A stretch of 64,000 nt of DNA from Sphingopyxis lindanitolerans. Lineage in GTDB: Bacteria; Pseudomonadota; Alphaproteobacteria; Sphingomonadales; Sphingomonadaceae. Each line of letters begins with the position of its first letter. Position 1 is the stretch's first letter. The notes beneath the pieces are model-generated. The model was given only the letters and a program-made list of their open reading frames with translations. It was not told where the DNA came from and made no database searches. The stretch lies in NCBI RefSeq assembly GCF_002993885.1, contig NZ_CM009578.1:248001-312000 (forward strand). The letters run 5' to 3'. Shown piece after piece: positions 57,246-57,397 of this stretch. The position numbers and the translations under genes are program-made.

Positions 57246-57397
57246 GAGTCCAGCGGAGTCCGCCGTCAAGCCCGGGATTCTAGGGATTCCGCGTGTCGAT
57301 ATGGTTAACGCGATGAGAACGAAAGGAGTCTGACACACCATATGGAGTCTGCCGCGACTCGGGGACTCAACCACTGGTGGTGTGGCGACAAGGACTC
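57246..57397. promoter_or_regulatory. Cluster of nine GANTC sites upstream of ccrM
   Basis: GANTC sites start at 57246, 57256, 57276, 57285, 57326, 57345, 57356, 57364 and 57393. At this base composition about 0.5 would be expected in 152 bp. Most have G before the site. The region is 38-189 bp upstream of the ccrM ATG and lies in the 366-bp gap (57209-57574) shared with the divergent secreted-protein gene; the remaining 57398-57574 has no GANTC and no gene. It is the probable methylation-sensitive control region of ccrM. Confidence 0.75.

Follow-up and report, generated by a model that had tools for sequence, protein, structure and literature searches.

We have found that the nine GANTC sites packed into 152 bp upstream of ccrM in Sphingopyxis lindanitolerans probably form a composite ccrM promoter-operator, in which a methylation-dependent core of the GcrA/σ70 type is joined to a dyad operator and would be switched off upon full methylation; we put the probability of this reading, which is drawn from sequence comparison, at roughly 0.55. 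A two-part control region of this kind would probably let CcrM regulate its own production in the cell cycle by negative feedback. The array lies in the 64-kb stretch of DNA that was analyzed (the window), whose relevant features are collected in Table 1, and the closest solved relative of the ccrM product is C. crescentus CcrM (6pbd, E 2.5e-148). The sites start at 57246, 57256, 57276, 57285, 57326, 57345, 57356, 57364 and 57393, exactly as the first-pass annotation of this DNA had listed them, and thus occupy the region 38–189 bases upstream of the ccrM ATG (minus-strand ORF 57208–56057). That annotation had spoken of ccrM leaders; the sites do precede the gene, but the predicted −35 and −10 elements put them in and upstream of the promoter, and we infer that the array is situated within or above the predicted promoter and not in the transcribed leader.

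Table 1. Features of the ccrM control region, with positions given in the window
Feature	Position	Strand	Basis
ccrM, GANTC adenine methyltransferase, 383 aa	56057–57208	minus	Pfam N6_N4_Mtase and RAMA domains
Predicted core promoter: TTGACG (57269–57264), 17-bp spacer, weak −10 CATCAG (57246–57241)	57241–57269	minus	geometry and conservation
GANTC site 9, overlapping the first base of the predicted −10	57246–57250		kept in 34/34 genus leaders
GANTC site 8, in the predicted core promoter spacer	57256–57260		kept in 30/34 genus leaders
GANTC sites 7 (57276–57280) and 6 (57285–57289), central base not fixed	57276–57289		position retained in 24/34 and 30/34 genus leaders
CGTTAACCATA, CtrA-like half-site, between core and operator	57300–57310	minus	TTAACC in genus and family leaders
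Putative ccrM dyad operator, sites 1–5: GAGTC-N-CCACACC-N-GAGTC ... GACTC-MAYAT-N-TGTG-N-GACTC-CTTTCGTTC	57317–57398	minus	model R1, 67.5 bits
Operator sites 5 (57326–57330) and 4 (57345–57349), GACTC on the ccrM strand	57326–57349		kept in 33/34 and 31/34 genus leaders
GANTC site 3, without a fixed central base, in the variable middle part of the operator	57356–57360		kept in 27/34 genus leaders
Operator sites 2 (57364–57368) and 1 (57393–57397), GAGTC on the ccrM strand	57364–57397		GAGTC in 34/34 genus leaders

The nine-site cluster is far beyond chance. In a sample of 864 kb, a fifth of the 4.37-Mb genome consisting of 40 stretches of 20 kb and the window, 1430 GANTC sites give a density of 1.655 per kb, at which 0.25 sites are expected per 152 bp (P of at least nine, 7e-12); the density in dinucleotide shuffles of the window gives an expectation of 0.81 (P of at least nine, 2e-7), and an earlier estimate of about 0.5 falls between these two values. 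The window as a whole is poor in GANTC (131 observed versus 349 expected). Segments of 152 bp with at least five sites occur in the 864 kb at the ccrM cluster only; four sites are reached at two other places and nowhere else are there more, so the many comparably dense segments that would have made the cluster look incidental are not seen in this sample. GANTC is reported to be over-represented in alphaproteobacterial intergenic regions (PMC3973325), and such general enrichment might by itself have been expected to produce clusters, but this explanation, to which we give practically no weight, is already contradicted by a density unmatched in the sampled fifth of the genome, by positions conserved in 34 leaders of the genus and by an operator common to 96 of 104 leaders of the family. 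One of the two other four-site places, at 9920–9987 of the window, holds its sites in 68 bp upstream of a gene for an EipA-family envelope protein (PF06577).

Leaders of ccrM were collected from 34 of 36 genomes of the genus (one had no full match and one was split across contigs), from 104 of 117 genomes of the family (the 13 omitted include those with the lowest CcrM similarities) and from the 20 of 22 genomes of the order that had a match, and for the class we took the 28 best new loci of 86 matching genomes (115 searched). One family leader lacks the DPPY anchor, leaving n = 103 in the counts of sites, core and TTAACC, and one class leader likewise lacks an anchor, leaving n = 27. A further set of named loci comprises the best 80 among the matches listed, one of which was dropped from the site and core counts because its contig starts inside the gene, leaving 79. 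Within the genus the densest 152 bp of the 34 leaders contain 6–9 GANTC sites (median 9), mostly in one register, with the retention of each site given in Table 1. A cluster missing from close relatives had been named as a sign that it was incidental; in fact all 34 leaders have the cluster, and its pattern recurs in the family.

The promoter status of the core is a prediction from geometry and conservation, since a generic σ70 scan called no promoter at the TTGACG element. The predicted 17-bp spacer contains site 8 and most of site 9, and a GANTC between −35 and −10, by which GcrA/σ70 promoters are recognized, is accordingly present at ccrM, with both promoter elements being predicted only. 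TTGAC-N14-GANTC is found in 34/34 genus, 80/103 family, 14/20 order and 16/27 class leaders, so that the putative core is shared with other orders, and the base that follows is A in every leader that has it. A second GANTC lies in the spacer in 30/34, 69/103, 14/20 and 16/27 leaders of the same four sets, as compared with 0.0002 in Markov sequences. TTGAC-N14-GANTC occurs twice in the 864 kb and only once, at ccrM, with A as the next base, a geometry that supports the promoter-operator reading. Where the core is present, the implied −10 ends in T in 16/16 class, 14/14 order and 60/80 family leaders but in G in 30/34 genus leaders; this and the negative σ70 scan count against reading the element as a promoter. 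At a spacing of N13–15 the core is found in 21 of the 79 named loci, for example in Ruegeria, Shimia, Parvibaculum sedimenti and Paramagnetospirillum caucaseum; among the matches listed, it is absent from those titled Caulobacter, Phenylobacterium, Brevundimonas or Asticcacaulis and from several others (Jannaschia, Maricaulis, Thalassospira, Stappia and Mesorhizobium). The lack of a TTGAC core in the listed Caulobacter-type loci speaks against the promoter-operator reading, in that the promoter known from Caulobacter is built differently and is thus an imperfect precedent.

Upstream of the core, four of the sites are fixed in both sequence and orientation. In leaders with any two GANTC sites 29 or 30 bp apart (78/103 family, 34/34 genus), those of the family have G in the center of site 1 (76/78) and site 2 (77/78) and C in the center of site 4 (64/66) and site 5 (51/52), whereas other GANTC sites near these in family leaders have A 12, T 8 and G 3 times. 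This contrast between fixed and mixed central bases in the same leaders also supports the promoter-operator reading. Conservation extends outside GANTC to CCACACC, to ATRTY before site 2, to an inverted MAYAT-N-TGTG after site 4 and to TTTCGTTC after site 5. We aligned 59 leaders (6 from the genus and 53 from the family) selected by a pattern that required GAGTC-N24/25-GAGTC and a final GTTC, columns that are therefore fixed by construction; the distance from the first GAGTC to TTTCGTTC is 81–83 bp in all of them, within the 72–95 bp that the pattern permitted. Since the length of the operator differs by single bases, we consider a coding constraint on it unlikely.

A sequence-only model of the operator (R1) matches 34/34 genus leaders and, at E ≤ 0.01, 96/104 family leaders, of which 53 are rows of the alignment and 43 are not. 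Among the 48 order and class leaders there is one weak match, in an order leader (L141, E 0.0018), which is located far upstream of the core and may be due to chance. Of the best 80 named loci listed, three match in part, in each case at the inner dyad and with both strands: Parvibaculum sedimenti, a Parvibaculum MAG and a Hyphomicrobiales MAG. These matches are located within the ccrM leader, on the upstream side of the core or of a TTGAC element. Strict family specificity of the operator is ruled out by these three loci. The full operator as modeled is a family trait, and its inner half may be older than the family, since Parvibaculum-like ccrM leaders carry the inner dyad. We note that three such leaders (L284, L285 and L287) have dyads of the form ATRTTGAGTC-N16-GACTCKATYTAGTG, and that the first two have a third GANTC in the middle of the dyad, resembling site 3 of the window. 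In the genome of the window R1 finds one place, since its second match is merely this dyad read from the other strand, and a search for a regulon gave no second place at E ≤ 10 with 150 of 951 first-look candidates scored. Its prevalence in ccrM leaders and its single place in the genome likewise favor the promoter-operator reading. In six of seven other genomes R1 matches at their own ccrM leader, with no match in the remaining one (G065) and one further weak match (E 0.18) in the genome G066.

The fixed central base and the orientation of the four sites within a larger dyad point to sequence-specific recognition, and it is possible, though in our view doubtful, that the upstream module is simply the operator of a sequence-specific regulator, in which GAGTC occurs by coincidence and its methylation is secondary or irrelevant, such that the core and the other sites alone matter for methylation. 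This would be in keeping with the central-base counts, with the conserved elements CCACACC, ATRTY and TTTCGTTC outside GANTC, with the dyad symmetry that produces the opposite-strand self-match and with the recurrence of the inner dyad in three Parvibaculum-like ccrM leaders. However, the sole place that the operator occupies in its own genome is at the gene whose product modifies GANTC, and further GANTC sites without a fixed central base are found both inside and beside it. We think it likely from the wider comparison that GANTC as such matters, because leaders of other orders have other layouts and yet contain 7.6–9.7 sites per kb, as against 0.5–1.5 in the body of ccrM. The densities in leaders are 13.4 per kb in the genus, 9.6 in the family, 9.7 in the order and 7.6 in the class, and those in the ccrM body 0.16, 0.98, 0.5 and 1.5, respectively. 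At sites 3, 6 and 7, the pentamer differs from the commonest one in 17, 7 and 24 genus leaders, and GANTC is retained in 10, 3 and 14 of these; counted by distinct pentamer, 1/8, 1/5 and 2/7 changes keep GANTC, which is no better than chance, and at sites 4, 5 and 8 the changes keep it in 0/3, 0/1 and 1/5 leaders. Being at chance level, the pentamer count alone is no proof of selection on GANTC as such.

The densest 152 bp contain a median of 5 sites in family leaders (range 2–11), 5 in order leaders (4–8) and 4 in class leaders (0–8), and the 79 named loci have a median of 2; among the matches listed, Parvibaculum sedimenti reaches 8 and Asticcacaulis sp. AC402 reaches 7. Nine sites are therefore a high number but not a unique one. 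GANTC clustering upstream of ccrM is a wide alphaproteobacterial trait, with layouts that differ between orders, and on comparison of the leaders the conserved feature is the arrangement of sites and not their number. The first-pass annotation had proposed that the cluster senses methylation in a count-like way, or that it serves as a platform for a protein reading hemimethylated clusters in the manner of SeqA; such a protein would bind several hemimethylated GANTC sites at once and delay their remethylation. We regard this explanation as unlikely, and a sensor that counts sites, as originally worded, does not fit a family in which the number per 152 bp varies over the range given above while the arrangement stays fixed; in the order and the class, too, site number is not conserved. 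Nevertheless, nine sites in 152 bp invite comparison with E. coli, where eight GATC sites at the dnaA promoter and eleven at oriC are described (PMC10073500), and adjacent sites in family leaders have a spacing period of ~9.8 bp (R 0.69 versus a null maximum of 0.20), with 9.85 bp in the leader of the window (R 0.90, reached by 0/5000 random placements). This spacing preference is absent from order and class leaders and follows from a fixed operator, and we treat it as a probable by-product of the latter. Helical phasing at 10.5 bp gives R 0.16 in the leader of the window and 0.63 in the family spacings, nearly as good as the 0.69 at 9.8 bp, and the phasing thus supports no conclusion. SeqA itself, moreover, has no homologue in the genome (PF03925 search, in which the E. 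coli control matches), a result that speaks against SeqA homologues as readers and does not extend to unrelated proteins with SeqA-like behavior.

The inverted pairs of GAGTC and GACTC are complementary and nested, with standard pairs in 86.8% of the cells of the structure tested, and could thus suggest that ccrM has a long leader that folds into a hairpin at the RNA level and acts as an attenuator or riboregulator. We rejected this explanation as very improbable, in that covariation is not above that of shuffles (0.046 versus 0.047) and none of the four leaders scanned matches an Rfam family; the array also lies upstream of the predicted start site. Since the covariation equals that of the shuffles, the symmetry of the operator is best read as symmetry of the DNA.

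If the array is a composite promoter-operator, then the core would act as a GcrA/σ70 promoter whose activity is set by its methylation state. Replication would leave all sites hemimethylated and so license transcription of ccrM driven by CtrA, GcrA or both, and the newly made CcrM would in turn methylate the array fully, whereupon expression of ccrM would stop because GcrA, or another protein that binds the operator, would occupy the fully methylated array differently. The four oriented operator sites could allow cooperative binding and hence a sharper switch without any counting of all nine sites. We note that GcrA is described as protecting a wider region on fully methylated than on hemimethylated ctrAP1, in a strand-specific manner, and as possibly trapping polymerase there (PMC3667746), and that Caulobacter promoters in which a GANTC lies between the −10 and −35 elements are described as activated at 40–60 min (PMC4287350). 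Because the putative promoter is compact, deeply conserved and mapped site by site, autoregulation of ccrM becomes addressable by point mutations.

The genome encodes GcrA (PF07750, E 2.4e-24, contig C1 4065799–4066080), in support of the promoter-operator reading; a single GANTC lies upstream of gcrA. The extended GcrA motif is given as YGAKTCG (Haakonsen 2015 as cited in PMC7987155), and of the 59 aligned operators 54 have its first six letters, as YGAGTC, at site 1 and 58 at site 2, but its final G is nearly absent (1/59 and 6/59), a partial match that counts against the promoter-operator reading. According to the same report, the extended motif is likewise not seen in B. subvibrioides, and it has been suggested that Brevundimonas uses a repressor distinct from GcrA that depends on methylation (PMC7987155). 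It is possible, and we put this forward as a tentative proposal only, that sphingomonads have an epigenetic switch dedicated to ccrM, in which an ~82-bp dyad operator with four oriented GAGTC sites, its inner half being older, is bound cooperatively by a methylation-sensitive reader that turns expression off sharply once the promoter is fully methylated. Candidates for such a reader would be a new regulator, GcrA as an oriented oligomer, or CcrM itself, and the operator could be used as bait to isolate a so far undescribed protein that reads GANTC methylation.

To our knowledge, methylation-controlled expression of ccrM is known mainly from Caulobacter. As in the array described here, GANTC and motifs of the TTAACC/CTAACC type are located upstream of the same gene in C. 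crescentus/vibrioides, and the ccrM upstream region of C. vibrioides DSM 9893 contains an inverted GAGTC/GACTC pair, TTGAGTCCGATAAGACTCAA. In that locus (L244) a perfect palindrome, TTGAGTC-CGATAA-GACTCAA, lies ~140 bp before the CcrM match and above the CtrA-like sites of ccrM, in an orientation similar to that of the inner pair of the sphingomonad operator. The Caulobacter promoter differs from the array in having four sites and not nine, no TTGAC-N13..15-GANTC core and no match to R1; its proximal GANTC pair is presumably in the transcribed leader. It had been said to hold only a couple of sites, which agrees with the two given in a review (PMC10073500) but not with the four in 300 bp of DSM 9893. 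Activation of Caulobacter ccrM by CtrA is described as occurring only from hemimethylated DNA (PMC2217572; CtrA and hemimethylated DNA likewise in PMC10073500), and in S. meliloti CtrA is reported to bind ccrM and support its expression (PMC4433202). GcrA/σ70 promoters such as ctrA P1 resemble the array in having GANTC in the predicted spacer between −35 and −10 and in that a GcrA gene is present, although the array has two spacer sites, one of them at a fixed register on the −10, and a large upstream operator. The GATC clusters to which SeqA binds in E. coli, at oriC and at the dnaA promoter, are, like the array, dense sites of an orphan methyltransferase at a cell-cycle gene, but they involve a different motif and enzyme, and the array lacks a SeqA homologue in its genome and has its sites within a sequence-specific dyad. 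The array is best placed with the methylation-responsive ccrM promoters, as one with a probable GcrA-type core and a putative operator dedicated to ccrM.

Between the two modules, CGTTAACCATA contains TTAACC, which resembles a CtrA half-site. TTAACC is found in 32/34 genus and 44/103 family leaders, and the full TTAA-N7-TTAA in 0/34 and 1/103; that TTAACC is missing from the other 59 family leaders counts against the promoter-operator reading. A perfect match to TGTGGATAA, presumably a DnaA box, follows the ccrM core in 35 of the 85 family leaders with a core (for example L050, L060, L062, L074 and L099) and in 0/34 genus leaders, and control of ccrM by DnaA is possible in other sphingomonads. 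On the far side of the array, a divergent promoter for upstream genes is unlikely, because the upstream SDR gene is on the same strand as ccrM and, in 15 of the 34 loci of the genus, has its stop 27–50 bp ahead of site 1; this gap is 155–213 bp in 11 and 945–1210 bp in 5, with no stop motif found in 3. In the window, two small ORFs without a Pfam match (57575–58268) lie between the SDR gene and the array.

A sphingomonad ccrM promoter array was not found named in the titles and abstract openings of open-licence literature. Up to five GANTC sites within 300 bp upstream of ctrA are reported for Sphingomonadales (PMC8116508), and in Sphingopyxis granuli TFA ccrM transcription is reported to fall 7-fold in anaerobiosis, with fast early repression (PMC6472365). 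Lastly, we note that parts of a 42-kb contig of the genome are identical to plasmid records of Sphingobium that include lin genes; in the plasmid-like contig C3 (bases 1–12000, L242), the Sphingobium plasmids with identical stretches carry linB/linC and IS6100.
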